In this document: positions 9,356 through 60,736 of the stretch, in pieces | Position numbering within the stretch: position 1 is the stretch's first letter | Layout: every line of letters starts with the position of its first letter | DNA from: an uncultured Bacteroidales bacterium | GTDB taxonomy: Bacteria; Bacteroidota; Bacteroidia; Bacteroidales; Muribaculaceae | Length of the DNA: 64,000 nucleotides | NCBI GenBank assembly: GCA_902782465.1 | Contig: CACZNH010000009.1 | Coordinates: 59,062-123,061 of the forward strand | Direction: 5' to 3' | Program-made: the position numbers and the translations under genes | Notes under the pieces: generated by a model | Seen by the model: only the letters and a program-made list of their open reading frames with translations | Told to the model about the DNA's origin: nothing | Database searches by the model: none

Positions 9356-9438
9356 GTCCACAGATTAAACGGATTAATGGGATTTTTGGCATCCGCGCCA
9401 TCAATTAATAATATGTTTAATCTGTGTAATCCGTGGAC
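9356..9438. repeat. Long imperfect inverted repeat with GGCATCCGC loop
   Basis: The arms are 23 bp: 9356-9378 and 9416-9438. They match except at a few positions and both are built from GATTA/TAATC words bounded by GTCCAC. The loop holds GGCATCCGC at 9388-9396 inside a small TGGC...GCCA stem. The right arm runs into the coding end of the GxxExxY gene: its stop codon at 9417-9419 and last six codons (STDYTD) are repeat sequence. A 13-mer, GATTAATGGGATT (9372-9384), recurs on the other strand at 36321-36333. Confidence 0.85.
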
Positions 9439-9836
9439 TTTATATTGTCCCATTTTGAGTTACGAATTATGCGTTTGTATTCTAGAGATTTTTTACCGAA
9501 GTTAATCAGGAGACCTAATTCCATTCCAGTTGCTTTCAGATAATTGCAAATTTGTGCATAGTGTTCATCTGTTAAATCTGAAACCGCCTTTAATTCAACG
9601 ATGACTTTATCATAACACACAAAATCAGGCCTAAAGACTTTTTCTAACAATTTATCTTTATAGGTTACCTGAAAAGTCTTTTTTCTAGAATATGGGATTT
9701 TCCTCAAACGCAACTCTTCCTCAAAAGCCTCTTGATAAAGCGGCTCAGTAAATCCACAACCGATGATACTGTGAACTTCCATAGCTGCGCCGATGATGCC
9801 GAAGGTCAGATCTTGATATTTAATCTTACTCTCCAT
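9417..9836 (-). CDS. GxxExxY family protein (PD-(D/E)XK nuclease fold)
   Basis: A 139-residue protein of the GxxExxY family, which has a PD-(D/E)XK nuclease-like fold and no firmly established role. The naming motif is GFTEPLY (Gly28, Glu31, Tyr34). The nuclease-like core is FRPDFVCYDKVIVELKAV, giving the Asp...Glu-x-Lys pattern. I start at the ATG at 9836 (MESKIKYQDL). The upstream TTG at 9842 adds only two residues. The C-terminal STDYTD is encoded by the arm of a dispersed repeat, and an exact 24-bp copy of that arm sits just upstream of the gene at 9856-9879. The gene therefore lies between direct repeats 441 bp apart. Such genes may be mobile passengers or repeat-associated nucleases; this is inference. 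Confidence 0.85.
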   Translation of the reverse strand: MESKIKYQDLTFGIIGAAMEVHSIIGCGFTEPLYQEAFEEELRLRKIPYSRKKTFQVTYKDKLLEKVFRPDFVCYDKVIVELKAVSDLTDEHYAQICNYLKATGMELGLLINFGKKSLEYKRIIRNSKWDNIKSTDYTD

Positions 9837-9855
9837 ATACAAAGATTATAAATCC

Positions 9856-9879
9856 GTTTAATCTGTGTAATCCGTGGAC
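9856..9879. repeat. Direct repeat copy flanking the GxxExxY gene
   Basis: These 24 bases are identical to 9415-9438 on the same strand, placing the nuclease-fold gene between two direct repeats. The key words are TTTAATC, GTGTAATCC and GTGGAC. This copy lies between the gene start and the stop of the downstream LRR gene. Confidence 0.9.
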
Positions 9880-9887
9880 AAGATAAG

Positions 9888-12308
9888 TTAGTTTAGGAGG
9901 AGGTCGATGAGGTCTACAAGGTCACCCAGGTCAACTCGACCGTTGCCGTTCAAGTCAGCACCAGCGTCACTGAAAGGCGCTACCTCTTTACCCAACAAAT
10001 AATCGATCGTATCGGTTATATCACCAATATTAAACACTCCATCAATGTTAGCATCTCCCTTCAAATCCATCTCCACAATCTGCCCAAAATACGGATACCA
10101 ATTTTCATCCACCTGATAAGCCTCAACCGACCCCACCGGCACATGAAGAGTGCGATTAGAATAGTCATTGGTATAAAGATTGAAAACAGAACTTCCCATG
10201 GAAACACTAGCTAAATCTATGATATAACAATACACATCATTAAGGTTGAAACAATAATTAAACACCTCGTTACCGATTACGGTGACAGAGCTAGGGATGG
10301 TGACTCTCGTCAAGTCAGAATTGGCGAATGCTTCATCGCCGATTGTAGTGACAGAGTAGGGTATAGTAACTTCGTTTAGACCTGACCATGCGAAAGCTTG
10401 ACTACCGATGATGGTGACGGATTTGGGAATGTCGATACTCGACAGCCATGAGCACCAATAAAATGCCCCGCTGCCAATTGTTGTGACAGAGTTGGGGATT
10501 TTAACATCGTACAGGCTGGTGCAAGCAGAGAACAAGCCGCCACTAATAGTAGTAATAGACTCTGGGATAGTGACACTCATCAAACTGGTGCAGCTTGAAA
10601 AAGCACTATAACCAATTGTTGTGACGGAGTTGGGGATGTCAATACTTGTAAAATCACAACATGAAAACGCGTCGTCGCCAATAGAGATAACAGAGTTGGG
10701 AATGTTGATGCTCGTCAGGCTGCAGCCAAAGAACGCGCCAGAGCCGATGGAGGTGACCGAGTTGCCGATGGTCACGCTCGTCAGGCCACTGCAGCATTCG
10801 AACGCCCATTCGCCGATGGAGGTGACGGAGTTGGGGATGGTCACGCTCGTCAGGCCACTGCACTCATAAAACGCATAACTGCCGATGGAGGTGACGGAGT
10901 TGGGGATGGTCACGCTCGTCAGGCTGCTGCACTCATAAAACGCATAGTTGCCGATGGAGGTGACGGAGTTGCCGATGACAGTATTCTTACAGCCTGTAAT
11001 CAATGTGCTGGAAGCCGTTTCAATAATGGCATTGCAATTATTTCGTGAATCATATTTCGGGTTTCCGCTTGCGACAGTAATGCTCGTCAGGCCGCTGCAG
11101 CCAGAGAACGCATAGTTGCCGATGGAGGTGACGGAGTTGGGGATGGTCACGTTCGTAATTCTTGAGCCATTAACAAAACTATCAGGAATCAACTCAACTT
11201 CATCACCAATTGTTACCAACTCTATATTTGATGTTGACATATTACCTCTTGAACTGCAATTCTTCGCATTCCATGTTAATTGCTGTAGGTTATTGCAGCC
11301 AGAGAACGCATAGTTGCCGATGGAGGTGACGGAGTTGCCGATGGTGACGCTCGTCAGGCCGCTGCAGCCATAAAACGCATAGTTGCCGATGGAGGTGACG
11401 GAGTTGGGGATGTCGATGCTCGTCAGGCCGCTGCAGCCATAAAACGCCCTTTCGCCGATGGAGGTGACGGAGTTGGGGATGTCGATGCTCGTCAGGCCGC
11501 TGCAGTCAGAGAACGCAGAGGCGCCGATGGAGGTGACGGAGTTGGGGATGGTCACGCTCGTCAGGCCGCTACAGCCATAGAACGCGCCAGAGCCGATGGA
11601 GGTGACGGAGTTGGGGATGGTCACACTCGTCAGGCCGCTACAGCCAGAGAACGCCCATTCGCCGATGGAGGTGACGGAGTTGCCGATGGTCACACTCGTC
11701 AGGCCGCTGCAGTCAGAGAACGCAGATCTGCCGATGGAGGTGACGGAGTTGGGAATCGTCACGCTCGTCAAGCCGCTGCAGCCATAGAACGCATAGTTAC
11801 CGATGGAGGTGACGGAGTTGGGGATGTCGATGCTCGTCAGGCCGCTGCTGCGAGAGAACGCATAACTGCCGATGGAGGTGACGGAGTTGCCGATGGTCAC
11901 ACTCGTCAGGCCGCTGCAGTTTGAGAACGCAGAGTCGCCGATGGAGATGACGGAGTTGGGGATGGTCACGCTCGTCAGGCCGCTGCAGCCATAGAACGCA
12001 CAATCGCCGATGGAGGTGACAGAGTTGGGGATGGTGACGCTCGTCAGGCCGCTGCAGCCATAGAACGCATAGTTACCGATGGAGGTGACGGAGTAAGTTG
12101 TGCCGTTATAGGCAACAGTGGAGGGGATGTTAACAGAGCCTGAATAGGTGTTATGATTCCAGGAACTTGTACCCTTGTAGGTTACTGCGGCTTCATTGCC
12201 GTCGTGGATGTTGTAGTAGATGCCGTCGACTTCGAAGTCGTGGGCTAGGGCAGTGGCTGGTAGCATGAGGGCTAACAGCAGGAGTGTGGATTGGATAAGA
12301 TGTTTCAT
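9888..12308 (-). CDS. Secreted BspA-like leucine-rich repeat protein with dockerin-like tail
   Basis: An 806-residue exported surface-type protein. The ATG at 12308 starts a signal peptide ([22 protein letters not shown]); longer in-frame starts would lie upstream of the promoter at 12341. After a short module [14 protein letters not shown] come roughly 24 TpLRR repeats of 23 residues of the form [18 protein letters not shown] cap ([11 protein letters not shown]...W.PYF) and a two-repeat dockerin-like domain ([19 protein letters not shown] and [18 protein letters not shown]) follow. BspA-type LRRs commonly mediate adhesion to host or bacterial surfaces. The DNA is itself repetitive (69-bp units). 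It is the first of a block of three similar genes; the ligand is unknown. Confidence 0.92.
11316..12095. repeat. Array of twelve 69-bp units inside the LRR gene
   Basis: The word GCCGATGGAGGTGAC starts at 11316 and then every 69 bases (11385, 11454 and so on to 12075), with only a few base changes between units (one unit has GGAGATGAC). Five further copies lie between 10740 and 11120 with broken spacing. Each unit codes for one 23-residue LRR. The high DNA identity suggests recent unit duplication or gene conversion and makes the array prone to copy-number change. Confidence 0.9.
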
Positions 12309-12340
12309 AGTCGTATGGGATTTAGTTGTTAATGATGTCG

Positions 12341-12371
12341 CAAAGTTAGGGGAAATCAAGAAGACAAGCAA
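12341..12371 (-). promoter_or_regulatory. Bacteroidetes promoter of the LRR gene 9888-12308
   Basis: On the minus strand a -33 TTG (12369-12371) is followed after 20 bases by the -7 element TAACTTTG (12341-12348). The start codon lies 32 bases downstream, which supports the ATG at 12308. Confidence 0.7.
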
Positions 12372-12471
12372 GTAATTCAACTACTAATTACGCAAATACC
12401 TCTTAATACACAAAGTTAAGGAAAACAATAAGTACAATAAATACTATATTTGTTGTGGTGGGGATAAAAAT

Positions 12472-12548
12472 AACGACAACTTGGTCAACTTTAACAGCAT
12501 TCATCACGGTGATGATAAAGAGTTGTTAGAGTTGTCCAAGTTGTCGTT
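12472..12548. repeat. Long inverted repeat between LRR genes
   Basis: The arms of 25 bp (12472-12496 and 12524-12548) differ at two positions and are made of CAACTT/GTTGT-type words. The 27-base loop contains its own palindrome, TCATCACGGTGATGA. It has the same architecture as the GGCATCCGC-loop hairpins but a different tip. It lies just beyond the stop of the 12616-15042 gene and could also end its transcript. Confidence 0.8.
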
Positions 12549-12615
12549 TAGTCAACTGGCTACGTGCTGGATAGAATGATTGTTTTCTTTCCAGACGTTG
12601 TCGTTGTTGGGTGTT

Positions 12616-15042
12616 TTAGAAAGGGAAGAGGAGCAGGATATCGGTGATGGCGGTGACGTCAGCGATGCTGATGATGCCGTCGCCGTCCACATCGGCGTTA
12701 ACGGTGTTGATTTCGGTCGTGTTGTCGCTGATCAGGTAGTCGATGAGAGCTACTGCATCGCTGATACCGATGAAATTGTTGCCGTCCACGTCAGCCTTCA
12801 TGAGGTCATCGACGATGTACTCGAAGAATGGATACCAGTCCTTGTCGGCTTTGTACAGGTGAGCGATGCCGTAAGGCACATGTAGGGTGCGGCCAGAATA
12901 ATCACCTTCTTCAGTAGAGAGGATATCAGTGCTACCAAAGAAATTACTTTCTTTCACTTTGGAGGGGTCGGGGATGTTGCAATATACATCCGTCAGGCCA
13001 GTGCATTCTTCCAGAGCGCCATAGGCCAAGGTCGTGACAGAGCTGGGAATCGTGATGGTCTCAAGAGCCTTGCAGCCATAGAAGGCCAACTCATTAATGG
13101 TGGTGACTGAGCGGGGAATGATGACACTCGTCAGGCTTGCGCAGTTGCCGAACGCCATTTCACCAATAGTGGCCACAGTATTGGGGATGGTGATGCTCTC
13201 CAAACTACTGCAGTTCATGAACAACATGGCAGCAATGTTAGTGACGGAAATTGGGATATTGATATTTGTCAAGTTTGTGCACTTTTCGAATGCCGCACCA
13301 CCGATGGTTGTAACAGAGTTTGGAATGCTCATGCTCGTCAGTCCAGTGCATTCCTCAAAAGCGCTGACGCCAATCGTGGTGACGGAGTTGGGGATGATCA
13401 AACCCGTCAGACTGCTACAGCCGTAGAATGCATTGACCCCGATTGAGGTGACTGTGTTGGGAATGATAGTGTTTTTGCACCCCACAATCAAAGAATTGCT
13501 TGCCGTCCTGATAATGGCATTGCAATTGTTGCGGGAATCGAATCTCGTGTTTCCGCTTTCCACAGTGATGCTCGTCAGGCCAGGGCATCCCCTGAACGCA
13601 TAGTTCTCGATAGCAGTAACAGAGTTGGGAATGGTGATGCTCTCCAGACTGCTGCAAAAATAGAACGAGTAAGCACCGATGGAAGTGACTGAGTTGGGGA
13701 TAGTGACACTCTCCAGTCCCGAACAGCCATAAAACAAACCATTGGCAATTGACGTGATGGAGTTGGGAAGTACCATACTCGTCAGATTAATACAATACAT
13801 GAACGCTTCAGCGCCAATCGAAGTGACTGAATTGGGGATGCTCACGCTCGTCAGACCGCGACAATTCATGAACGCTTCTTCGCCGATGGTAATAGAGTTG
13901 GGAATGCTGATGTCCGTCAAGCCACTACAGTCGGAGAATGCGTTTTGTGCAATACCTGTAGTGCCGTCGTTAATGATGATGCTCGTGTCAGCGGGCATCG
14001 TGCCTTTGTATTTATAAGCAATCAATCCGGTATACACCAGGCCGTCTGGCTGGTTGTTATACCATGGCGTGTTATCAAACGCATATTCACCAATGGTATT
14101 CACGGTGTTGGGAATGCTGATATCCGACAGACTCGTGCACCCGCTAAACGCACCTTCGCCAATAGTGGTAACGGAATTGGGAATGTCGATACTCGTCAGA
14201 TTGGTACAGCCATAGAACGCCCAACGGCCTATGCCAATGACGGTGTTAGGAATGGATATATCCGACAGACCTGCGCAACTGCTGAACGCATTTTCAGCAA
14301 TAGCGACCGTACAATCGTCAAGCGTTATGCTGGTGCCTTCGGGCATCTCACCCTTGTATTTATAGGCGACTAATCCCGCATACACAAGTCCATCAGGCTG
14401 GTTGTCGAACCATGCGGTATTTGCGAATGCATAAGCGCCAAGGCTGGTGACAGAATTCGGCAAGTAGATGTCCGTCAGGTTATTGCACCCGTTGAAAGCA
14501 GAGTGACCAATCGAGGTGACGGAGCTGCCCATAGTGACACGCTCTAGGTTTATGCAATTCTGGAACGCACCACTAGCGATTCTTTTTACTGAATTAGGAA
14601 TATCCATGCCTTTCAGACCATTACACTCTTCAAACGCATACGGACCAATAGTAGTTATGGAGTTACCGAAATTCACACTGGCTAAATGATAGCATTTGCT
14701 GAATGACATGTGCCTGATTTCAGTGACGGTGTTGGGGATGGTCACACTCGTCACTGTAGCACAATGATTAAACGCAAAGTCTCCAATAGTGGTGACTGGA
14801 TAGGTGATTCCGTCATGGGTTACCGAGGATGGAATCACTACATCTCCAGAATAATCACTATAATAGTCAGGAACTGCACCTGCGTCAAAATAGAAGATAT
14901 TCTTGTAGGTAACAGATGCCTCATCGCCATTGATGTCGTAATAGATGCCGTCTACTTCAAAGTCATAGGCAGCAGCTGCCATTGGCAACAGCAAGGTCAG
15001 CAACAAGAGTGTGGAGGAGAGGAGGTTTTTCATTTTCGTCAT
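12616..15042 (-). CDS. Secreted BspA-like leucine-rich repeat protein with dockerin-like tail
   Basis: An 808-residue exported protein. I use the ATG at 15042 (MTKMKNLLSS); another ATG at 15033 is possible and an in-frame TTG lies at 15051. A signal peptide ends near PMAAA, followed by [23 protein letters not shown], whose key stretch [11 protein letters not shown] is shared with the neighbouring LRR gene. About 26 TpLRR repeats follow, less uniform in DNA than those of the 9888 gene. Two inserts with DGLVYxGLxAYKYKG interrupt them. The C-terminus has the LHVPYG...W.PFFEYI cap and a dockerin-like pair (DVDGNNFIGISDAVALIDYL and DVDGDGIISIADVTAITDIL). It is a likely adhesin or matrix-binding surface protein; the partner is unknown. 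Confidence 0.9.
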   Translation of the reverse strand: MTKMKNLLSSTLLLLTLLLPMAAAAYDFEVDGIYYDINGDEASVTYKNIFYFDAGAVPDYYSDYSGDVVIPSSVTHDGITYPVTTIGDFAFNHCATVTSVTIPNTVTEIRHMSFSKCYHLASVNFGNSITTIGPYAFEECNGLKGMDIPNSVKRIASGAFQNCINLERVTMGSSVTSIGHSAFNGCNNLTDIYLPNSVTSLGAYAFANTAWFDNQPDGLVYAGLVAYKYKGEMPEGTSITLDDCTVAIAENAFSSCAGLSDISIPNTVIGIGRWAFYGCTNLTSIDIPNSVTTIGEGAFSGCTSLSDISIPNTVNTIGEYAFDNTPWYNNQPDGLVYTGLIAYKYKGTMPADTSIIINDGTTGIAQNAFSDCSGLTDISIPNSITIGEEAFMNCRGLTSVSIPNSVTSIGAEAFMYCINLTSMVLPNSITSIANGLFYGCSGLESVTIPNSVTSIGAYSFYFCSSLESITIPNSVTAIENYAFRGCPGLTSITVESGNTRFDSRNNCNAIIRTASNSLIVGCKNTIIPNTVTSIGVNAFYGCSSLTGLIIPNSVTTIGVSAFEECTGLTSMSIPNSVTTIGGAAFEKCTNLTNINIPISVTNIAAMLFMNCSSLESITIPNTVATIGEMAFGNCASLTSVIIPRSVTTINELAFYGCKALETITIPSSVTTLAYGALEECTGLTDVYCNIPDPSKVKESNFFGSTDILSTEEGDYSGRTLHVPYGIAHLYKADKDWYPFFEYIVDDLMKADVDGNNFIGISDAVALIDYLISDNTTEINTVNADVDGDGIISIADVTAITDILLLFPF

Positions 15043-15085
15043 GGTTTTCAATGAGTATTGGTTTTAGTTAAAGTTAATAAAGTTA

Positions 15086-15116
15086 CAAAATTAATACAAG
15101 TTACAATGGTGACAAA
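15086..15116 (-). promoter_or_regulatory. Bacteroidetes promoter of the LRR gene 12616-15042
   Basis: On the minus strand -33 TTTG (15113-15116) and -7 TAATTTTG (15086-15093) are separated by 19 bases, a good match to the Bacteroidetes consensus. The start codon follows 43 bases later. Confidence 0.72.
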
Positions 15117-15223
15117 AGATTTGACAAAGAATTATTCAATCTAGTGTTTTTATTTATCGCCTTCTTCCACATTATCATTCCATGTTCATCTATGCAATCA
15201 GTGGACTATTTTTGTCATCTGGA

Positions 15224-15255
15224 TTTGAGGATTTGTTTTTTATTTTATACATTTG
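15224..15255 (+). promoter_or_regulatory. Bacteroidetes promoter of the LRR gene 15314-17014
   Basis: The -33 TTTG (15224-15227) and -7 TACATTTG (15248-15255) have a 20-base spacer. The gene starts 58 bases downstream. It is divergent from the 15086-15116 promoter, so two LRR genes are fired in opposite directions from one intergenic region. Confidence 0.72.
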
Positions 15256-15313
15256 CCAAATAATTACAACCAAATGATGAATTGTCTAACCTAATATCAA
15301 TATTTCCTGAATT

Positions 15314-17014
15314 ATGAAAAAGAATCCATTACCTTTAAAACTGTTATGTTTGATGGTCCTTTTGGCCATTGCAGGCACCCTCACGCTATCGGCTGCCGAC
15401 TTTGATGTTGACGGCTTCTGCTTCAACATCATCGGCGATAATGAGGTAGAGGTGACGAGCCGTGACACGGACAAGTACGCCGGCGAAGTGTTCATTCCAT
15501 CGACTGTCATCAACAATGGCACGACCTATCAGGTCACGCGCATCGGCTTGCGGGCATTTTATGGTTGTAGAGACGTCACCGTGGTTGATATTCCCGAAGG
15601 TATCACTTCAATCGGTAGAGCGGCTTTCAACAGTTGTGTCAATCTCGAGAATGTCGATTTGCCTAACTCGCTCGTTTCAATTGAAGAATCGGCTTTTTCT
15701 TACTGCCATGCCATCACGTCCTTTCATGTTCCTCGCAACCTGGCCTCGTTAGGGGAGCAGGTATTCATGGGAAGCAGCCAAATCCAGTTTTTCTCTTGCA
15801 GTTCCCTCAACCAGCACTTCAAGGCAGTCAACGGCGTGCTTTATTCCAAGGACATGACCGAGTTGTATTGTTATCCTGTTAAGGCCACTGCGGCAACCTA
15901 CGAGGTCCCCAGCCCTGTTGCCCGAATACACGAGTACTGTTTTGCCAACAACCAGAGCCTGACTCATGTGACCTTCCCCGAAACACTGCGTTGGATTGAC
16001 ATGAACATCTTCAGGGATTGTAAAGGAATTGAAACCTGCTATATCCCTGATAGCGTGTACCACATGGGCGTTACGGTGTTTGGCGGCTGCAGCAACCTGA
16101 CCAGTGTGCATCTTCCTGCCAACCTCGACTCGCTCCAAAACAGTATGTTCATGATGTGTGACAAATTGACCGAGGTCTTTATCCCACGCAACGTGAAATA
16201 CATCGGCAGTTATGCCTTTTATCGCTCGGGCGTTAAGACGGTGACCATCGAGGAGGGCAGTCAGCTGGAAACGATATTCGATCATGCGTTTTCCGAAAGC
16301 TACTATCTGGAATCACTTGACATGCCCAACACTGTCAAGACGCTAGGAAGCAGTGCGTTTTATAGATGTGATCAGCTGAAGTCTGTTCACATGAGTGAAG
16401 CGCTCACCAGCATCGGCATTTCGACGTTCTGCTACTGCCCGTTATTGACCGAAGGGTATATTCCCGGAGGGGTTACCAATGTAAAGAATGCTTATGCCAG
16501 GTGTGAAAACATTAAGCGAATGAGAATCGGCAGCAAAGATTCGGCTCCAGGCGTCACCACGATTGAGAACTGCGGCATTGTTTATTGTGAACAGATTGAG
16601 TATCTTGAATTAGGCGCCAACGTTGACTCGCTGGATTCCCACGGGTTGGTGGATCTTGATAACCTCAAGGTGCTCATCAGCTGGGCTGCCGTTCCTCCTC
16701 GATGCGATGGTTATTGGCACAGCTTTGACCCGTATTCAGTGTACACCGACGTAAACTTGTATGTCCCCAGGGCATCACTGGAAGCCTATCGTAACGCCGC
16801 TGATTGGAAGAACTTCAGAAACATTACGGCTATCGAGGACGTGGGTGATGTCGATGGCAACGGTATAATTGACATTGTCGACATCACTGAGCTGATTGAC
16901 AAAATGCTGAATGGTGGTGAGATGAACGCTGCCCGTTGTGATGTGGACCTCAACGGCACGGTGGGTATCGGCGATATCACAGCACTTATCGACAAAATTC
17001 TGAATGGGAACTGA
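15314..17014 (+). CDS. Secreted BspA-like leucine-rich repeat protein with dockerin-like tail
   Basis: A 566-residue exported protein on the plus strand, divergent from the 12616 gene. A signal peptide (LKLLCLMVLLAIAGTLTLSA) leads to DFDVDGFCFNIIGDNEVEVT, the same N-terminal module as the other LRR proteins. About 15 irregular TpLRR repeats follow (for example VTVVDIPEGITSIGRAAF). The repeats are far more diverged than those at 9888-12308. The end has the cap LYVPRASLEAYRNAADWKNF and a dockerin-like pair, GDVDGNGIIDIVDITELID and DVDLNGTVGIGDITALID. A bidirectional terminator-like hairpin follows at 17039. The role is probably surface binding; the ligand is not predictable. Confidence 0.9.
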   Translation: MKKNPLPLKLLCLMVLLAIAGTLTLSAADFDVDGFCFNIIGDNEVEVTSRDTDKYAGEVFIPSTVINNGTTYQVTRIGLRAFYGCRDVTVVDIPEGITSIGRAAFNSCVNLENVDLPNSLVSIEESAFSYCHAITSFHVPRNLASLGEQVFMGSSQIQFFSCSSLNQHFKAVNGVLYSKDMTELYCYPVKATAATYEVPSPVARIHEYCFANNQSLTHVTFPETLRWIDMNIFRDCKGIETCYIPDSVYHMGVTVFGGCSNLTSVHLPANLDSLQNSMFMMCDKLTEVFIPRNVKYIGSYAFYRSGVKTVTIEEGSQLETIFDHAFSESYYLESLDMPNTVKTLGSSAFYRCDQLKSVHMSEALTSIGISTFCYCPLLTEGYIPGGVTNVKNAYARCENIKRMRIGSKDSAPGVTTIENCGIVYCEQIEYLELGANVDSLDSHGLVDLDNLKVLISWAAVPPRCDGYWHSFDPYSVYTDVNLYVPRASLEAYRNAADWKNFRNITAIEDVGDVDGNGIIDIVDITELIDKMLNGGEMNAARCDVDLNGTVGIGDITALIDKILNGN

Positions 17015-17038
17015 TTCCCAGACCTGATTACCAATAAT

Positions 17039-17070: not shown

Positions 17071-17093
17071 TATGTATCGATGCCAAGGGGGCT

Positions 17094-17562: not shown

Positions 17563-17570
17563 GAAATTGT

Positions 17571-31362: not shown

Positions 31363-31439
31363 AAACTACGAATTACGCGAATTACACTAACAGATAAAGT
31401 AAGGTTTATATTTAGTGATATTAGCGTAATTCGTAGTTT
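31363..31439. repeat. Long inverted repeat with ATTACG words
   Basis: The arms of 28 bp (31363-31390 and 31412-31439) differ at three positions and are built from ACTACGAATTACGC-like words. The 21-base loop lacks GGCATCCGC. It lies between galM and the nucleotidyltransferase gene and has no T-run. Confidence 0.85.
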
Positions 31440-36357: not shown

Positions 36358-36433
36358 GTCCACGAATTAACCAAATTTTACGAAATATGGATGGCGGATG
36401 CCTAAATTCGTAAAATTCGATTAATTCGTGGGC
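36358..36433. repeat. Long inverted repeat with GGCATCCGC loop
   Basis: The arms of 27 bp (36358-36384 and 36407-36433) differ at three positions and use CGAATT/AAATTTTACG words. The loop on the minus strand contains GGCATCCGC (36394-36402), within GGC-ATCC-GCC. It ends 18 bases from the stop of the DUF1963 gene. Confidence 0.85.
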
Positions 36434-42654: not shown

Positions 42655-42761
42655 AAGTTTTTAGTTTTAAGTATTTAGTTTTAAGTACAATTACTATCGC
42701 CCAAAGAATGTAGAGCATACGGTATTATTACTTAAAACTGACAACTTAAAACTGACAACTT
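42655..42761. repeat. Long inverted repeat with AGTTTTAAGTA words
   Basis: The arms of 33 bp (42655-42687 and 42729-42761) differ at five positions. Each arm holds two copies of AGTTTTAAGT. The 41-base loop lacks GGCATCCGC. It fills nearly the whole gap between the rlmI start and the rseP stop. Confidence 0.8.
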
Positions 42762-52371: not shown

Positions 52372-54275
52372 GAATGCCCGGAGGACCCAGCAACCGCCAT
52401 GTCGTCGTGGATACCACTGGCGTGAACAAGCGCAGCACATTGTGGCGCCTGTTCAAGATTGTGATGAAACATTACAAGTTCTCGTTCCTGGCTGTAGCAG
52501 TCTGTATCGTAGTGACAGCATGCACTACCCTAGCCTCTACCCTATTCACCCGCACCCTCATCGACGATTACATCACGCCCATGATTGGCCAAGCGCACCC
52601 CGATTACGGGCCACTTGCCGACACGTTGGTTAAATTGGGCATCGTACTTGCCTTCGGTGCCTTGTGCTCCTATCTGCATAGCCGTCTGATGATTAACGTG
52701 ACCCAAGGAACGATGCTGAAGCTGCGCAAAGGCATGTTTGAGCATATGCAGACGCTGCCCATCAAGTACTTTGACACCCATGCACATGGCAACGTGATGT
52801 CATCCTATACTAATGATGTGGACACCCTGCGTCAGATGATTTCAAACAGTTTGCCGCAGGCCTTCAACTCATTGATTACCTTGGGCATCACATTTGCCAG
52901 CATGATTGTGATGAGTGTGCCCATGACCATCCTGTCGATAGTCATGGCGCTGGTCATGGCATGGTCCACCACCTATCTAGGCAAGCGCTCACGCAAACAC
53001 TTCCGCGTGCAACAGCAGAAACTTGCCGAGGTGAACGGTTTTATCGAAGAAATGATGACCGGCCAAAAGGTGGTAAAGGTCTTCTGCCACGAAGACAAGG
53101 CCATTAAGCAGTTTGAAGTCATCAACGAGGAATTGCGCAGCAACACCTACGATGCAAACCGCATCAGCAACATCGTTATGCCCGTCAACGGCAATCTGGG
53201 TCATCTGAGTTATGTCCTCATGGGTGTGCTGGGAGCTGCACTCATCCTGAACGGACACACAGGAATGACACTGGGTACACTGGTGGCATTCCTCACGTTG
53301 AACAAGAGCTTTGCCCGTCCCATTGCCAGTATCAGCCAGGAAATCAACAGCGTGTTGAACGCATCGGTGGGTGCCGACCGCATCTTTAAGATTCTCGATG
53401 AGCAGGTTGAGCCTGATGCCGGCAAGGTGCGACTGGTTAACGCCAAGCGCGGCTTGGACGGCTTGCTGCATCCCTGCAACCACCACACGGGCATTTGGGC
53501 TTGGAAGATTCCTAAAGAAGATGGTAAGTTCCGATATATCAAGGTATCTGGTGGCGTCAAGTTCAACGATGTGGATTTCGGCTACAACGAGGACAAGCAG
53601 GTGCTCTTTGACATAGACATTGACGCTATGCCTGACCAGAAAATTGCCTTTGTAGGCGGCACCGGTGCGGGCAAAACGACCATTACCAACCTGATTAACC
53701 GTTTCTACGATATCCAGGACGGCAAAATACTGCTGGACGGAATCAATGTCAATGACATCAGCAAGCGCGACTTGCGTCATAGCTTGGGAATGGTGTTGCA
53801 GGAAACTCGCCTGTTCACTGGCACGGTGCTTGACAACATCCGCTACGGCAGGCTTGAAGCCACCGACCAGGAATGCATTGAGGCAGCCAAATTGGTCAAT
53901 GCCGACAACTTTATCCGTCGCTTGAGCGATGGCTACCACACTGTCCTCAATGCCGACGGCGGCAACCTCAGTCAAGGTGAACGCCAGCTGTTGGCCATTG
54001 CCCGCGCTGCTGTAGCCGATCCGCCCATGCTCATTCTCGACGAGGCTACCAGCAGCATCGACACCCGCACCGAGACTCTGGTCCAGCGCGGTATGGACTC
54101 CCTGATGAAGGGTCGCACGACCTTTGTCATCGCCCACCGTCTGTCAACGGTGCGTAACAGCGACTGCATCATTGTCCTTGAGCATGGCCGCATCATCGAG
54201 CGCGGTACCCATGAACAACTACTTGCCGCTAAGGGTAAGTATTACCAACTCTATACTGGAGGTGAAATCACTTAA
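52368..54275 (+). CDS. ABC exporter half-transporter, catalytic-site subunit
   Basis: A 635-residue partner of the preceding gene, with six predicted helices and an ATPase domain. Walker A is FVGGTGAGKTTITNL. The signature is NLSQGERQLLAIARA and Walker B is PPMLILDEATSSID, with the catalytic Glu intact. An insertion of about 35 residues (NAKRGLDGLLHPCNHHTGIW) separates the TM domain from the ATPase and is typical of the YheH-like half in Bacteroidetes and Firmicutes. Translation is coupled by the ATGA overlap and a strong SD. The transglutaminase-like gene follows after 10 bases, so it is part of the same operon. Confidence 0.93.
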   Translation: MRMPGGPSNRHVVVDTTGVNKRSTLWRLFKIVMKHYKFSFLAVAVCIVVTACTTLASTLFTRTLIDDYITPMIGQAHPDYGPLADTLVKLGIVLAFGALCSYLHSRLMINVTQGTMLKLRKGMFEHMQTLPIKYFDTHAHGNVMSSYTNDVDTLRQMISNSLPQAFNSLITLGITFASMIVMSVPMTILSIVMALVMAWSTTYLGKRSRKHFRVQQQKLAEVNGFIEEMMTGQKVVKVFCHEDKAIKQFEVINEELRSNTYDANRISNIVMPVNGNLGHLSYVLMGVLGAALILNGHTGMTLGTLVAFLTLNKSFARPIASISQEINSVLNASVGADRIFKILDEQVEPDAGKVRLVNAKRGLDGLLHPCNHHTGIWAWKIPKEDGKFRYIKVSGGVKFNDVDFGYNEDKQVLFDIDIDAMPDQKIAFVGGTGAGKTTITNLINRFYDIQDGKILLDGINVNDISKRDLRHSLGMVLQETRLFTGTVLDNIRYGRLEATDQECIEAAKLVNADNFIRRLSDGYHTVLNADGGNLSQGERQLLAIARAAVADPPMLILDEATSSIDTRTETLVQRGMDSLMKGRTTFVIAHRLSTVRNSDCIIVLEHGRIIERGTHEQLLAAKGKYYQLYTGGEIT

Positions 54276-54285
54276 CATCACTACA

Positions 54286-56859
54286 ATGAAGAGAATACTG
54301 ACAACCGTTGTATCATTATTGGCCTTTACATGCATCTTGAATGCTGCGTCTATCGAGCAGTTGAGAACACCTGACGTTTCTCAACTGAACGTGAATCCAC
54401 AGGAAAAGGAGGCGCTGCAATTCCTGTATGCCTACATGCCACTAGCAGACATTACCGATTATTCAGTTGAGTTCCACCTGCAAAACATACGTGCCACCTT
54501 CGAAGCCCGCGAGCAGATGCCATGGGGCCATCGAGTGCCGGAATTGCTGTTCAAGCACTTCGTGTTGCCCCTGCGTGTCAACAACGAGGCGTTGGACATG
54601 TCACGACCTGTGTTTTTCAACGAATTGAAAGAACGCGTACGTGGCATGAGCATGGAGGAAGCCATCCTGGAAGTCAATCACTGGTGCCACGAACATGTGA
54701 CCTACCAGCCAAGCGATTCCCGCACCCTGTCACCATTGGCATGCATGAAAACCGCTATTGGCCGTTGCGGCGAGGAATCCACGTTCACCGTTGCCGCCTT
54801 GCGCTCCATCGGCATCCCCTCACGCCAAGTCTATACCCCGCGCTGGGCCCACACCGATGACAACCATGCCTGGGTCGAAGCGTGGGCCGACGGCAAGTGG
54901 CACTTCATGGGAGCCTGTGAACCCGAGGCCGTGCTGGACCTGGGTTGGTTCAACGCCCCGGCATCCAGGGCGTTGCTGATGCACACACGAGCTTTTGGTG
55001 ACTACAACGGACCAGAAGAGGTAATGTCACGCACCCGCAATTTCACTGAAATCAATCTTATCGGCAATTACGCCGCTACCGCATCAATTCAGGTGCAGGT
55101 GCTCGACAATGCCAACAATCCTGTCAAGGGTGCCAAGGTTGAATTTCGCATCTATAACTATGGCGAGTTCTATCCCGCCGCCACCAAGTATTCTGATAGC
55201 CAGGGCAAAGCCTCACTTACTGCAGGAATGGGTGATATGCTTGTGTGGGCAAGTAAAGATGGAAGGTATGGATACCGTAAAGTGTCCTTCGGCAAAGACG
55301 AAACCATTGAAGTAGTTCTCAACCGTAATAACAATCTCATAGCTGGACCGACCTATGAAACCTTTGACATCGTCCCACCAGTCGAGAATGCTGTGATGCC
55401 CAAGGTGACTCCCGAACAAGCAGCCGAGAACAAACTACGCTTTGCCCGCGAGGATTCCATCCGCAAAGCTTATGAGGCTACATTTCTTGATACTGAAAAA
55501 GCCACGGCCCTCTGCCCTGCCATTGCCGATTTCCTCGTTAAATCACGTGGCAACTGGCAAACGATATTGGAGTTTGCAAACAGCCATAGAGAGAATATGG
55601 ACCGTGTCGTCGGCGTTCTTAACGGACTGAATGACAAAGACATGCGTGACGTTTCGACGGCAATTCTCGAGGATGCATTCATTGCGCGAAGCGACCAATT
55701 GGCGCAACGAGTGGAATATGAGATGATTACATCGCCGTTCAAATGCGAGTTACAACAAGTTTTTGATGTCGAAACCACTGCCCGATATCAAAGTAATCCA
55801 GCATTACTTGCCCGCTGGGTGAAAGAAAACATCAGTATCCAACCTGAGGAAAATGCGCTGCACATTGCACAGACCCCTATGGGCGTGTGGCGCTACCGTG
55901 TTGCCGACAATCGTGGTCGCGACATTTTCTTTGTGGACCTTGCCCGCTCTCTGAACATCGATGCCCGCAAGGACCCCGTTACCGGAAAGGTTCAATATCG
56001 CACCAACGGCGACTGGCAGGATGTGAACTTTGAAGCAGTGAAACAGCAGAATGCAGAAACTGGCATCCTCAAACTGCAATACACCCCCACCCCACTACTG
56101 GATGACCCGAAATATTATCACCATTTCTCCATCTCTAGAATCCTTGACGAAGGCACGACCCAACTGCTGAACTATGACGAGGGAGATTCAGGCCTTGAGG
56201 AGGGCTCTTCCTGGAGCAACACGTTCCAGAACGGTACGACGCTTGATGCAGGCACTTACATGCTTACCAGCGGCACCCGCGCTGCCAGCGGCAAGGTGCT
56301 CGTTGCCAACTGCATTTTCAAGGTCAATCCAAACGAGACCACGACCGTGGATTTGACGATGCGCCAGAGTGATGACATGGTAGCGGTTATCGGCAATTTC
56401 AATTCCGAATCCAAATTCCAATTGCTCGACAACCAACTGAATCCCGTCAACAGTGATGCCGTCAGCATCCTGTCACAAACCGGGCGCGGCTACTTTATCG
56501 TGGGTGTGTTGGGCGTCGGCCAAGAGCCCACCAACCACGCCATGCGTGACATAGCCAAAATGAACAATGCCTTGGATTCTTGGGGACGCCCCATAGTGCT
56601 GCTGTTTGAAAACGAAACCGAGGCCGCTAAATACCGTCATGAGAACTTCGGCACATTGCCCAAGAATATCATTTACGGTATCGACACCGACGGCGCCATC
56701 CGTGACCAGATTGTCCAGGAGATGAAACTGCAAAGCAAGACACAATTGCCGATTTTCATCCTTGCTGACACATTTAACCGCGTGATGTTCTGTTCACAGG
56801 GCTATACCATTGGCCTGGGCGAGCAGTTCAATAAGGTCATCAACAACCTGGACCGATAA
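54286..56859 (+). CDS. Secreted transglutaminase-like protein
   Basis: An 857-residue exported protein. The ATG at 54286 starts a signal peptide (MKRILTTVVSLLAFTCILNA); the longer frame lies inside the ABC gene. A transglutaminase core follows with the triad Cys161 in GRCGEESTF, His in DDNHAWVEAW and Asp/Glu region HFMGACEPEA. After it comes an Ig-like carboxypeptidase-regulatory module (VQVLDNANNPVKGAKVEFRIYNYGE), a helical middle and a C-terminal thioredoxin-like-looking end (GRPIVLLFENETEAAKY). The last part has no CxxC. Bacterial relatives are mostly peptidases or of unknown activity. It is co-transcribed with an ABC exporter, and might act on peptides moved by it. A terminator hairpin follows. 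Confidence 0.88.
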   Translation: MKRILTTVVSLLAFTCILNAASIEQLRTPDVSQLNVNPQEKEALQFLYAYMPLADITDYSVEFHLQNIRATFEAREQMPWGHRVPELLFKHFVLPLRVNNEALDMSRPVFFNELKERVRGMSMEEAILEVNHWCHEHVTYQPSDSRTLSPLACMKTAIGRCGEESTFTVAALRSIGIPSRQVYTPRWAHTDDNHAWVEAWADGKWHFMGACEPEAVLDLGWFNAPASRALLMHTRAFGDYNGPEEVMSRTRNFTEINLIGNYAATASIQVQVLDNANNPVKGAKVEFRIYNYGEFYPAATKYSDSQGKASLTAGMGDMLVWASKDGRYGYRKVSFGKDETIEVVLNRNNNLIAGPTYETFDIVPPVENAVMPKVTPEQAAENKLRFAREDSIRKAYEATFLDTEKATALCPAIADFLVKSRGNWQTILEFANSHRENMDRVVGVLNGLNDKDMRDVSTAILEDAFIARSDQLAQRVEYEMITSPFKCELQQVFDVETTARYQSNPALLARWVKENISIQPEENALHIAQTPMGVWRYRVADNRGRDIFFVDLARSLNIDARKDPVTGKVQYRTNGDWQDVNFEAVKQQNAETGILKLQYTPTPLLDDPKYYHHFSISRILDEGTTQLLNYDEGDSGLEEGSSWSNTFQNGTTLDAGTYMLTSGTRAASGKVLVANCIFKVNPNETTTVDLTMRQSDDMVAVIGNFNSESKFQLLDNQLNPVNSDAVSILSQTGRGYFIVGVLGVGQEPTNHAMRDIAKMNNALDSWGRPIVLLFENETEAAKYRHENFGTLPKNIIYGIDTDGAIRDQIVQEMKLQSKTQLPIFILADTFNRVMFCSQGYTIGLGEQFNKVINNLDR

Positions 56860-56870
56860 ATCGAGTTTTC

Positions 56871-56903
56871 ACCTGCGTTTCTTCAATTACAAGAAACGCA
56901 GGT
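56871..56903 (+). terminator. Terminator of the ABC-transglutaminase operon
   Basis: ACCTGCGTTTCTT (56871-56883) pairs perfectly with AAGAAACGCAGGT (56891-56903) over a 7-base loop, 12 bases after the stop codon, followed by TCTCTATT. Confidence 0.8.
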
Positions 56904-57008
56904 TCTCTATTACCTACACTTTCGATAAAAATCAACCGAGTCGAGGGATTGCCCAAATAAAAATTTATTTTTTATTTGGCACTCCGCTCGAGTTGTGCAT
57001 TTTTTTTG

Positions 57009-57016
57009 TAATTTTG
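57009..57016 (+). promoter_or_regulatory. -7 element of the mce operon
   Basis: TAATTTTG matches TAnnTTTG, 60 bases before the mce start. The upstream stretch has an 11-bp AT palindrome (CCAAATAAAAA at 56953-56963, complement at 56969-56979). No well-spaced -33 box is visible. Confidence 0.55.
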
Positions 57017-57075
57017 TGCGTTATTTTGAAAATTCACTAATTTACATTATATAATCATTTAAAAACCAAAAAGTT

Positions 57076-57495
57076 ATGAACATTTCGCACATCGAACACG
57101 TGGGAATCGCCGTTACCTCGCTTGAGGAGGCTATTCCTTTCTACGAGAAAATGCTGGGCTTCAAGTGCTTTGCCATTGAAGAAGTAGCTGACCAGAAGGT
57201 AAAGACCGCCTTCTTCCAGGTGGGTCAGACCAAGATTGAGCTCCTCGAGGGCACTGCCCCTGAGAGCGCTATCTGCAAGTTCATTGAGAAGAATGGTGGC
57301 CGTGGCGGCATCCAGCACATCGCATTTGCCGTTGAGGATGGCGTACAGAATGCACTGAACGAGGTACAGGAGAAGGGTGGCCGCGTTGTTGACGCACAGC
57401 CCCGCAAGGGTGCCGAGGGCCTGAATATCGCCTTCCTGCATCCCAAGACCACCTGTGGCGCACTTGTAGAACTCTGCGAAAATCCCAACAAGTAA
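57076..57495 (+). CDS. mce: Methylmalonyl-CoA epimerase
   Basis: Interconverts (R)- and (S)-methylmalonyl-CoA, linking the mutase product to the decarboxylase. The 139-residue length is standard for this vicinal-oxygen-chelate enzyme. Metal ligands come from HIEHVGIAV, ELLEGTAPES and HIAFAV, with the final NIAFLHPKTTCGALVELCE. It is the first gene of a five-gene propionate module. The next gene, mmdA, begins 91 bases later across a hairpin. Confidence 0.96.
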   Translation: MNISHIEHVGIAVTSLEEAIPFYEKMLGFKCFAIEEVADQKVKTAFFQVGQTKIELLEGTAPESAICKFIEKNGGRGGIQHIAFAVEDGVQNALNEVQEKGGRVVDAQPRKGAEGLNIAFLHPKTTCGALVELCENPNK

Positions 57496-57507
57496 TAAAT
57501 AGTCGTA

Positions 57508-57582
57508 AGTTTTCAGTTTCCTGTTGTCCGCGGCATCCGCATTCAACTGAAAACTGAAAACTGAAAACTGAAAACTGAAAAA
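57508..57582. repeat. Inverted repeat with GGCATCCGC loop and CTGAAAA heptamers
   Basis: The left arm 57508-57526 pairs with 57544-57562 over 17 of 19 bases. The tip is GCGG-CAT-CCGC containing GGCATCCGC (57532-57540). The right side continues as five tandem CTGAAAA-type heptamers up to 57582, five bases before the mmdA ATG. It lies inside the mce operon. Confidence 0.85.
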
Positions 57583-57586
57583 TAAA

Positions 57587-59200
57587 ATGGGAAAACAACT
57601 TGATAAGATTCAAGAGCTGATCGAGCGTCGCGAGAAAGCGCGCCTGGGCGGTGGCGAAAAGGCTATTGCCAAGCAGCACGAGAAGGGCAAATTCACTGCC
57701 CGTGAGCGCATCAATATGCTCCTTGACGAGGGCAGCTTCGAGGAACTGGACATGTTCGTTCAGCACCGCTGCACCAACTTCGGCATGGAGAAGAAGGCCT
57801 ATGACGGCGACGGCGTTGTTACCGGTTTCGGCACCGTTGGCGGTCGTCTGGTTTACGTCTTTGCTCAGGACGCAACCGTCATCGGCGGTTCGCTGGGCGA
57901 GACCATGGCTTTGAAGATGTGTAAGGTGATGGACCTCGCTATGAAGCAGGGCGCACCTGTCGTTGGTCTGAATGACTCGGGCGGTGCCCGCATCCAGGAG
58001 AGCGTTAACGCCCTCGCAGGCTATGCCGAGATTTTCCAGCGCAACATCAACGCATCGGGCGTCATTCCCCAGATCAGTGCTATCCTTGGCCCCTGTGCCG
58101 GTGGTGCTGTTTACTCCCCTGCCCTGACTGACTTCATCATCATGGCCAAGGGCATTTCCTTCATGTTCCTTACCGGTCCCAAGGTGGTTAAGACCGTTAC
58201 CGGCGAAAACGTGACCCAGGAACAGCTGGGTGGTGCAGGTGTACATGCCAGCAAGAGCGGCGTGGCACACTTCGCTGCCGAGACCGAGGAAGAGGCTATC
58301 GCCATCATCCGCCAGCTGTTGAGCTACATGCCCAGCAACAACATGGAAGAGACTCCCCGTGTGGAGTGCACCGACCCCATCGACCGCGTGGAGGATGCCC
58401 TGAACAACATCATCCCCGAGAGCGCCAACGACCCCTACGACATGTATCAGGTCATCAGCGCTATCGTCGATAACGGTGAGTTCCTCGAGGTTCACAAAGA
58501 CTTCGCCAAGAACATCATCGTAGGTTTTGCACGCTTCAACGGCCAGGCCGTGGGTGTTGTCGCCAACCAGCCCAACTGCATGGCAGGTGTGCTTGACGTG
58601 AACGCATCCAAGAAGGGCGGCCGCTTCGTCCGCTTCTGCGACGCCTTCAACATTCCTCTGGTAACCCTCGTTGACGTGCCCGGCTTCCTGCCCGGTACCG
58701 GCCAAGAGTATAACGCTGTCATCATGAACGGTGCCAAGTTGCTGTACGCATACGGCGAGGCAACCGTGCCCAAGGTGACCGTTACCCTGCGCAAGAGTTA
58801 CGGCGGTTCGCACATCGTGATGAGCTGCAAGCAGCTGCGCGGTGACTTGAACTACGCATGGCCCAGTGCCGAAATCGCCGTTATGGGCGCTGCCGGTGCT
58901 GCCGAGATTCTCTATGCCAAGGACAGCAAGAACTTTAAGGCCCAGGCCGAGGAGGCCAAGGCTGCCGGCGACGAAGCCAAGGCCAAGGAACTCACCGAAG
59001 CTGGCAAGAAGTTCATCCAGGAGAAGGAGGACGAGTACAACAACCTCTTCTGCACGCCTTACAATGCAGCCCGTTATGGCTACATCGATGACGTGATTGA
59101 GCCGCGCAATACCCGCTTCCGCGTGATTCGCGCTCTGGAGGTTCTCCGCACCAAGAAGTTGACCAACCCTGCCAAGAAGCACGGTAATATCCCCCTGTAA
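57587..59200 (+). CDS. mmdA: Methylmalonyl-CoA decarboxylase, carboxyltransferase subunit alpha
   Basis: Transfers the carboxyl group of methylmalonyl-CoA to biotin, giving propionyl-CoA; propionyl-CoA carboxylase beta chains are close relatives and the two cannot be separated fully by sequence. It has 537 residues. Blocks are the acyl-CoA carboxylase N-terminal GKFTARERINMLLDEGSF, GLNDSGGARIQESVNALAGY, IPQISAILGPCAGGAVYSPAL and the C-terminal TLVDVPGFLPGTGQE and RKSYGGSHIVMS. An insert rich in A, K and E near 440-475 (QAEEAKAAGDEAKAKELTEA) is typical of Bacteroidetes MmdA. The gamma, biotin-carrier and beta subunits follow. Confidence 0.95.
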   Translation: MGKQLDKIQELIERREKARLGGGEKAIAKQHEKGKFTARERINMLLDEGSFEELDMFVQHRCTNFGMEKKAYDGDGVVTGFGTVGGRLVYVFAQDATVIGGSLGETMALKMCKVMDLAMKQGAPVVGLNDSGGARIQESVNALAGYAEIFQRNINASGVIPQISAILGPCAGGAVYSPALTDFIIMAKGISFMFLTGPKVVKTVTGENVTQEQLGGAGVHASKSGVAHFAAETEEEAIAIIRQLLSYMPSNNMEETPRVECTDPIDRVEDALNNIIPESANDPYDMYQVISAIVDNGEFLEVHKDFAKNIIVGFARFNGQAVGVVANQPNCMAGVLDVNASKKGGRFVRFCDAFNIPLVTLVDVPGFLPGTGQEYNAVIMNGAKLLYAYGEATVPKVTVTLRKSYGGSHIVMSCKQLRGDLNYAWPSAEIAVMGAAGAAEILYAKDSKNFKAQAEEAKAAGDEAKAKELTEAGKKFIQEKEDEYNNLFCTPYNAARYGYIDDVIEPRNTRFRVIRALEVLRTKKLTNPAKKHGNIPL

Positions 59201-59202
59201 TC

Positions 59203-60207
59203 ATGAGTAAAAGAGCTTTGACACTCATGCTGCTGTGCGCCATCCTCGCACTGCCCACGCTTGCTCAACGCAAGAACGTGCGCATCAACGAGGTGATGGT
59301 GCAGCAGGACACTACGGGCGGCAACGGCTGGATTGAGTTCTACAACTCATCCTATAGCACCGTCGCCGTCGAGAAGATGTTTATCACCACACTGAGCCGC
59401 GACGAGGTCAAGAACCACATCAAGGCGGTGACCGACACTTCCAAAATGAAACCCAACAAGGTGATGATTGAGTGGTGCAAAGAGCGTCCCATGGACATCT
59501 ACGAGATTCCCCGTGGCGACGAGCGCAACACCAAAATCAAACCCCGCGCCCACTTTGTTATGGAAACCGATGGTGACATCAAGGCTGGAACTTTCCACCT
59601 TCCTTTCACCCTCAAGGCTGGCCAGGACAACTATGTGGCACTCTATGACGTGAATGGTGACCTGGTTGACGACGTGACGATTCCCGCATCGCTCAAGCCC
59701 GGTGAGACCTACGCTATCAAGGCCGAAGGCCGTCTGCCCAGCGAGCTGGAAGACGGTCAGACCGAATGGATTGTAAAGGACGGCAAAACGCTGGAGACCG
59801 CTATCACCAGGGGGAACTACAACATCCGCGAGGTGAACGAGAACATCGAGGCCTTCCACGAGAAAGACCCCCATGGCTACTGGATTGCCCTGCTGGCCAT
59901 GTCGGTCGTTTTCAGCGCCCTCGCCATTCTGTACATCTGCTTCAAGCTCTTCGGTGTCGTCAGCAAGAAGACCGCCGGTAAGGAAGAGGAACCTGTTGTA
60001 GCAAGCGCTCCTGCAGCCCAGGCTGCAGCGGTGCCCGCCAGTGGCGACCTCGACGGCGAGAAGATGGCAGCCATCTGCTTCGCCCTGTATCAGCACCTGA
60101 ATGCCCATGACCAGGAGAGCGGTGTGCTGACACTGACTCCGCGTGACGGTTCAACTTGGGCCACCAAGGCCGGTCTGATGCGTGAATTACCAGTTATCAA
60201 GAAATAA
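59203..60207 (+). CDS. OadG-family gamma subunit with N-terminal extracytoplasmic domain
   Basis: Gamma subunit of a sodium-pumping decarboxylase, here 334 residues although bare OadG is about 80-90. A signal peptide (MSKRALTLMLLCAILALPTLAQ) leads to a lamin-tail-like domain of about 170 residues (VRINEVMVQQDTTGGNGWIEFYNSS). The single membrane segment is at about 225-247 (YWIALLAMSVVFSALAILYICF). A cytoplasmic linker with an Ala/Pro-rich stretch follows, then MAAICFALYQHLNAHDQESGVLTL. It lies 2 bases after mmdA. The periplasmic domain is common to the Bacteroidetes version; its role is unknown. Confidence 0.88.
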   Translation: MSKRALTLMLLCAILALPTLAQRKNVRINEVMVQQDTTGGNGWIEFYNSSYSTVAVEKMFITTLSRDEVKNHIKAVTDTSKMKPNKVMIEWCKERPMDIYEIPRGDERNTKIKPRAHFVMETDGDIKAGTFHLPFTLKAGQDNYVALYDVNGDLVDDVTIPASLKPGETYAIKAEGRLPSELEDGQTEWIVKDGKTLETAITRGNYNIREVNENIEAFHEKDPHGYWIALLAMSVVFSALAILYICFKLFGVVSKKTAGKEEEPVVASAPAAQAAAVPASGDLDGEKMAAICFALYQHLNAHDQESGVLTLTPRDGSTWATKAGLMRELPVIKK

Positions 60208-60229
60208 TTATCACTAAAAACATTCACTC

Positions 60230-60661
60230 ATGAAGGAATATAAATATAAAATCAATGGCAACGAGTACACGGTTGCTGTCGATAACATTGAGGGCAACAT
60301 CGCCCATATCCAGCTCAACGGCGTGGCCTATGACGTTGAGTTGCCCGAGCAGCCCAAGGCCGCTCCCGCCGTTAAGCGCGTTGCCGTGAGCGATGCACCC
60401 GCAGCCGCTCCCAAGCCCGCAGCCCGCAAGGCTGCTCCCGCCGCTGGCGGTCACGTCATTGAATCGCCGCTTCCCGGTGTCATCAAGGACATCTTTGTTA
60501 AGGTTGGCCAGCAAGTGAAGGCCGACGACGTGGTATGCATCCTCGAAGCCATGAAGATGGGTAACGAGATTCATGCCGGCGTTGACGGTACTGTCAAGAG
60601 CATCGAGGTATCGAAGGAGGATTCGGTACTCGAGGGTAACACAATCATGGTAATCGGATAA
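60230..60661 (+). CDS. Biotin carrier subunit of the methylmalonyl-CoA decarboxylase
   Basis: A 143-residue biotinyl protein that ferries CO2 from the carboxyltransferase to the membrane decarboxylase. The N-terminal part (YKYKINGNEYTVAVDNI) is followed by an Ala/Pro-rich flexible linker (AAPKPAARKAAPAAGG). The C-terminal biotinyl domain carries the biotinylation site EAMKMGNEI with Lys at about 108. It acts at the inner face of the cytoplasmic membrane together with mmdA and the beta subunit. It is 22 bases after oadG. A GGCATCCGC-loop hairpin separates it from the beta-subunit gene. Confidence 0.95.
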   Translation: MKEYKYKINGNEYTVAVDNIEGNIAHIQLNGVAYDVELPEQPKAAPAVKRVAVSDAPAAAPKPAARKAAPAAGGHVIESPLPGVIKDIFVKVGQQVKADDVVCILEAMKMGNEIHAGVDGTVKSIEVSKEDSVLEGNTIMVIG

Positions 60662-60665
60662 AATC

Positions 60666-60736
60666 CAGTTGTCAGTTCTAAGTTTTCAGTTGTCAGCGGC
60701 ATCCGCACACAACTGAAGACTGAAAACTGAAAACTG
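60666..60736. repeat. Inverted repeat with GGCATCCGC loop and CTGAAAA heptamers
   Basis: The 28-bp arms (60666-60693 and 60709-60736) match at 24 positions. The tip is GCGG-CAT-CCGC, with GGCATCCGC at 60698-60706, and CTGAAAA words continue to about 60746. It is a near-copy of the 57508-57582 repeat and sits five genes into the same operon, just before the beta subunit. Confidence 0.85.

Follow-up and report, generated by a model that had tools for sequence, protein, structure and literature searches.

MITEs are small, non-coding and multi-copy, they are present or absent at orthologous gaps, and they are defined by terminal inverted repeats and target site duplication. In Neisseria, a DNA uptake word is known, while the cyanobacterial STRR are intergenic heptamer arrays comparable to the TAACTGA arrays considered below. 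REP elements of the GTAG/CGTC families are short intergenic palindromes occurring in many copies, according to Di Nocera 2013 (PMC3733652). The TAACTGA heptamer arrays, as presented in MacGregor 2015 (PMC4679880), consist of seven-base tandem words which are intergenic, often precede start codons, are patchily distributed and have no evident mover. For such heptamer-type repeats in Beggiatoaceae, Cyanobacteria and Bacteroidetes, the same paper reports no evident transfer mechanism.

Here, we analyzed a window of 64,000 nucleotides (the whole stretch of DNA under study), in which a first-pass annotation had described four hairpins with the same nine-base tip, GGCATCCGC, on differing stems. All four copies are exact and lie where they had been placed (9388, 57532 and 60698 on the plus strand, 36394-36402 on the minus strand), compared with 0.82 copies expected from dinucleotide shuffles and a maximum of three over 100 shuffles. 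Each copy forms the apex of a significant hairpin, and the four folds, calculated as single-stranded DNA, beat each of 200 shuffles. The hairpin at 9356-9438 (plus strand, half apex at 9388-9396, z = -3.6) is built from GGATTA/AGATTA words; the inverted repeat annotated there does form a hairpin, but its stem is interrupted, with 13 pairs followed by short inner helices. The hairpin at 36358-36433 (minus strand, half apex at 36394-36402, z = -7.7) possesses ACGAATT word arms with 25 unbroken outer pairs. TTTTCAG/CTGAAAA heptad arms form the remaining two, located in the gap between the epimerase and mmdA-like ORFs (57508-57582, plus strand, half apex at 57532-57540, z = -5.5) and in the gap before the beta subunit ORF (60666-60745, plus strand, half apex at 60698-60706, z = -6.5 for 60666-60736). 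The stem words differ as annotated. The tip, which had been assigned to the loop, does occupy the apex, but at 57508 and 60666 it is closed as GCGG-CAT-CCGC and leaves no open loop. When hairpins were collected regardless of GGCATCCGC, 13 were found in the window, four with the tip and nine without it. The hairpin at 31363-31439 (plus strand, z = -9.1) has ACGAATT word arms of the same stem family as 36358; its tip is missing, and it holds neither of the two apex modules described here.

A count over the genome to which the window belongs (own genome; 3.13 Mb, 45 contigs), which had been suggested at first pass, gave 203 copies of GGCATCCGC compared with 26 for the reversed pattern serving as control. 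Stem scores were calculated for the 60 copies that had sufficient flanking sequence in 340 kb of own-genome stretches picked for containing listed copies, and coding status was set by a simple long-ORF rule. The 39 non-coding copies showed a mean stem score of 18.5 compared with 11.1 after shuffling, and 31 of them scored at least 12. In contrast, the 21 coding copies reached a mean of only 11.3 compared with 11.0 after shuffling (at least 12 in 10 copies). In the window, which was not picked for copies, all four are non-coding.

The tip might be read in transcripts by a protein or an RNA, with the hairpin stabilizing or regulating the mRNA, and such an RNA element would be in line with the many copies located between same-direction genes, for example in the mmd operon, and with the A-rich right arm that often reaches the start codon. 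However, when 52 elements were compared with their flanking genes by a rough ORF rule, 22 ran with both genes, 15 against both, 9 lay in convergent and 6 in divergent gaps; by this rough count, the strand of the elements shows no tie to transcription. Furthermore, 13 of 29 genomes lack an insert in the gap before mmdB, and Rfam gave no match reaching the gathering score in the four sources scanned (the window, L033, L044 and L049). We consider an RNA element unlikely.

The first-pass picture of one tip on private stems holds in part: several stem families carry the tip, far above chance, but the stems are not private, since the main families recur. At least five word families are represented in the stems of the non-coding copies from the own-genome stretches. 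With word classes defined by simple patterns, which leave many arms unclassed, 25 of 43 non-coding copies (own stretches and window) have arms of the same family (TTCAG 14, TTAGG 10, GGATTA 1), two have unlike arms, 12 have a single classed arm (TTAGTC/CTAG, TTAGG, GAATT, TTAAG, TTCAG or AACAACT) and four have none. Matched arms prevail in the 39 copies of the own stretches alone (22 matched, 2 unlike, 11 with one arm classed, 4 with none), suggesting that arm exchange is not frequent there. The 12 copies from relatives comprise no matched, 4 unlike, 7 single-classed and 1 unclassed pair of arms. Most arms are heptads pointing to the apex (AGTYNNN, TTAGGNN), and ACGAATT, GGATTA and other words also occur. 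A heptad frame like AGTYNNN is common to the TTCAG, TTAGTC/CTAG and TTAAG families, which may thus be related; the frame does not extend to GGATTA and GAATT. Within one word family, the stems are alike and have similar extended tips. In the relative G024, tandem units ending in GGCATCCGC were observed, of about 76 bases in L302 (6388-7000, with a single opposite arm downstream) and about 54 bases in L306 (13474-13988). In 200 kb of G084, a low-clade genome, 14 hairpins and one GGCATCCGC copy were found, and no word-arm hairpin was recognized by eye.

Stem arms had been expected to change in a compensating manner, and comparison of a few orthologous copies (types A and B) revealed no such change. 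Among the four CTAG-type copies, C replaces T at one and the same heptad position of three right-arm repeats in G067 and of two in G024, without a matching change in the left arm in either case; G076, of the TTCAG type, shows a similar doubled change within an arm. In this small sample, the repeated changes at one heptad position look like homogenization within an arm rather than compensation across arms.

At some loci, GCGGATGCC or GCGGATGTC lies a short distance beyond GGCATCCGC. The tip forms the left half of an extended apex palindrome with about 14 pairs, GGCATCCGC-RYYCC-loop-GGRRY-GCGGATGCC, which is new relative to the first-pass annotation. As expected of a left half, the non-coding half copies of the own genome keep RYYC after GGCATCCGC, with C at +4 in 32 of 43. 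The search pattern GCATCCGC-N6-30-GCGGATG, in which the bases between the fixed ends are free to vary, matched in 32 of 61 same-genus genomes (4 matches in the own genome), while the control pattern gave 1 match over all. When the clade was defined by MmdA identity instead of a genome tree, with at least 97% counted as near-identical, the pattern was present in all 28 genomes of the clade (own included) and in 4 of the 33 others. Copies of GGCATCCGC itself were counted in 36 same-genus genomes and numbered 53-186 (median 138) in the 17 with at least 97% MmdA identity, 7-82 (median 36) in the 16 with at most 89% and 21-35 in the three without an MmdA match, compared with 6-50 for the reversed-pattern controls. 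In 24 genomes of other families, 1-52 copies were found, 11 of these genomes lying above twice their own control; examples are G044 (52 compared with 19), G058 (37 compared with 8) and G059 (24 compared with 3).

Pairing inside the palindrome was assessed on the 86 distinct palindromes among the matches listed, 84 of which were long enough, against 2000 shuffles. Watson-Crick pairs were present at inner position 1 in 64 of 84 (32.7 shuffled, maximum 46), at position 5 in 57 (36.5 shuffled, maximum 48) and at position 6 in 37 (21.5 shuffled, maximum 35), whereas the counts at positions 2, 3 and 4 of these 84 stayed within the shuffled range. Clear covariation was seen only within this extended palindrome, at some of its inner pairs.

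A T run follows some full palindromes (L035, L020 and L050 of the own genome), as would suit intrinsic terminators in which one stem word is favoured; an uptake word like that of Neisseria belongs to the same group of explanations. Among 32 full palindromes in relatives, four have TTTT no further than 10 nt away on one or both sides. However, the other 28 have no such run, the coding copies show no stem excess, and divergent gaps hold 6 of 52 copies. We regard terminators or uptake words as most improbable, and the intrinsic terminator, a G+C stem and then a T run, was rejected. In L035, more than 200 bases after the full palindrome recur almost identically (at about 156 on the minus strand and at 7613), upstream of different genes. 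A separate multi-copy palindrome around GAGACGCAAAATNTTGCGTCTC occurs at L305 19200-19273, L304 2182-2264 and L047 7820-7903, and also inside the epimerase-mmdA gap of G006. A possible complementarity of GGCATCCGC to 23S rRNA was considered and dropped as probably fortuitous. Among the PMC matches listed for GGCATCCGC or its complement, no title concerned such a repeat.

A second apex module, ATTACYATYGCCT, behaves like the GGCATCCGC module. It has 14 copies in the own genome compared with 0 for the control, and it is present in 33 of 61 genus genomes with at most 14 copies each. In the window, it is represented by ATTACTATCGCCC (42690-42702), one mismatch from ATTACYATYGCCT, in a hairpin with TTTTAAG heptad arms at 42655-42761 (plus strand, z = -3.2), for which 1 of 200 shuffles was equally stable. 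Fourteen near matches in the own stretches were sorted by eye; 11 adjoin word arms and three do not. Five of these 11, the window hairpin among them, possess matching arms plus the right half of the second apex or a remnant of it, another five are half copies whose left arm is TTAAG or TTCAG and whose right arm belongs to a different family, and one has no right arm. Half copies of the second apex join arms of different families.

The two TTTTCAG hairpins lie in an operon with the order epimerase, mmdA-like, 334-aa protein, biotin carrier and beta subunit. The methylmalonyl-CoA epimerase ORF (57076-57495) and the sodium-pump decarboxylase beta subunit ORF (60753-61907) pass the NCBIfam cut-off, while the matches of the mmdA-like ORF (57587-59200), the biotin carrier and the 334-aa protein are below it. 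For the 384-aa protein at 60753, the nearest named record listed, with 96% identity, comes from the uncultured Bacteroidales bacterium RUG13812; records very near the own genome may be missing from this listing. Over 32 genomes, most readable operon gaps are either short (2-33 bases) or filled by an insert with word arms, about 58-155 bases long; two are of intermediate length (39 and 49), and four are not properly readable. Sister species often have the orthologous gap empty where the own genome has a hairpin, and the epimerase-mmdA gap measures 12-18 nt in several of them.

The gap before mmdB, the beta subunit gene, is filled in 16 of 29 readable genomes by at least four hairpin types, comprising six with TTCAG arms (own included), four with CTAG arms, one with TTAGC arms and five in which TTGTAAG arms enclose the second apex, save for RUG13812 with an uncertain apex. 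GGCATCCGC is exact in six of the ten TTCAG or CTAG copies and one base off in three, and one tip is found here on two arm types. On the operon-gene tree, in which 11 of 29 inner branches are well supported and three genomes with an unreadable gap (G034, G075 and G020) were labelled empty by default, the types are scattered, and neither their scatter nor their clustering exceeds that of shuffled labels. This patchiness may be due to ordinary recombination or old polymorphism. In the gap preceding the biotin carrier, the outer arms align across G036, G035, G078, G083, RUG13812 and G017, while the apex is GGCATCCGC in G036, one base off in G035, a decayed tip in G078 and the second apex in G083, RUG13812 and G017. 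We read this as probably one insertion whose apex was replaced, although the similar outer arms could partly reflect convergence on A-rich sequence before the start codon.

The evidence for modularity includes one apex on several arm families, half apices between arms of different families, differing apices on similar outer arms at one orthologous gap, and the presence or absence of elements at gaps between related species. Our preferred explanation, which may be correct but is put forward tentatively, is that these are small intergenic DNA elements of interchangeable parts, in which two word arms surround an exchangeable apex module. We infer that arms and apices would be exchanged as DNA; the simplest route would be template switching or strand exchange at an apex hairpin in its single-stranded state. 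The half apices left at the joint would be scars of such exchange, the word arrays would then homogenize inside an arm by slippage, and the apex would persist because a copying or joining step needs it. It is conceivable, albeit rather doubtful, that a dedicated single-strand enzyme reads a few apex modules as joints and exchanges arms of arbitrary words. On that assumption, the tip would be what is recognized, and the stem would be replaceable. No enzyme for element movement was found among the candidates considered below.

The main rival of this modular exchange is a mini-element seeking apices, in which the palindrome is the mobile unit that inserts into the tips of existing hairpins and half copies are deletion remnants. 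It would explain why one arm family can be found both with the tip (36358) and lacking it (31363) in the window, why the palindrome is nearly confined to one clade when word arms occur elsewhere in the genus, for example beside four-helix-bundle genes, and why differing apices sit on similar outer arms at one gap. However, half copies within a word family have the same extended tip context, suggesting that arm and half apex multiplied as one unit, at least there, and no full palindrome was caught beside its empty hairpin counterpart in the sequences compared. We consider this mini-element possible, though with some scepticism. Modular exchange and the mini-element both predict intermediate states among strains of one species. 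A conserved apex with exchangeable arms offers a concrete handle, as it shows which site may be recognized, and the exchange is testable in strains.

With regard to candidate movers, Y1_Tnp matches in 55 of 61 genus genomes would be compatible with mobilization of ordinary REP elements by REP-associated tyrosine transposases (RAYT). However, neither GTAG, GTGG nor CGTC was found within 7 nt of the palindrome foot on either strand in 32 full palindromes, and none of 13 Y1 loci contains an exact GGCATCCGC. Furthermore, Y1 is frequent where the palindrome is absent, and no Y1 match was found in G076 and G081, which bear the palindrome. REP elements of this type are very improbable here, and without tag, linkage or a matching distribution the Y1 transposase was rejected as the mover. 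The inverted-repeat score of the flanks at the 13 Y1 loci is high (mean 38.7, 6 of 13 above the 95% level of mismatched loci), which reflects repeats of the Y1 genes themselves. One broken Y1 transposase gene, at about 1126-1960 in L087, lies with its own repeats between TTAGGAG and CCTAATG word arms. Neither REP tags nor RAYT linkage nor terminator structure explains the GGCATCCGC hairpins. A reverse transcriptase was likewise rejected as mover, as the own genome (94.8% complete) yielded no RVT_1 match.

Four-helix-bundle proteins are matched in 55 of 61 genus genomes, the six without a match all lying outside the clade, and many of their genes lie between inverted word arms in the genus, among the matches listed. 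Their flanks show a mean inverted-repeat score of 27.0 compared with 13.3 for the direct-orientation control; for mismatched loci, which have words in common, the mean is 18.3, and their 95% level is exceeded by only 1 of 32 real loci. With one mismatch allowed, GGCATCCGC is not enriched beside these genes (6 of 33 loci compared with 10 of 33 in the control), and these proteins were therefore rejected as the mover. In L051, L052, L054 and L089-L117, PF05635 (23S_rRNA_IVP) genes often lie between inverted arms of repeated words, and what seems to be the same gene slot contains different words in different genomes (L092, L096 and L097).

Compared with known systems, the elements resemble the REP elements of PMC3733652 in being short intergenic palindromes of many copies, but they possess no GTAG/CGTC tag and no RAYT linkage, and the apex is conserved instead of the whole stem. 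The 23S rRNA intervening sequences, in which an S23 (four-helix-bundle) gene lies in a hairpin inside 23S rRNA (PMC4990558), resemble the many four-helix-bundle genes set between inverted word arms in this genus, each like a gene in a hairpin loop, but GGCATCCGC is not enriched beside those genes; the window contains no rRNA match, and the genome's four PF05635 matches are on other contigs than the window hairpins. MITEs are alike in size, non-coding nature, copy number and presence or absence at orthologous gaps, but neither a terminal repeat common to the copies nor a target duplication could be identified here; when filled and empty operon gaps were compared, the ends were too diverged for precise ends and target duplications to be read, because the gaps diverge too fast. 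The TTCAG, TTAGG, TTAAG and CTAG arms consist of tandem seven-base intergenic words, and the CTGAAAA arms are of the same kind as the heptamer arrays in the available portion of PMC4679880. The TAACTGA arrays presented there are one-sided and direct, with one inverted case. In contrast, the elements described here possess inverted pairs of arms flanking a conserved apex, and the words vary while the apex stays.
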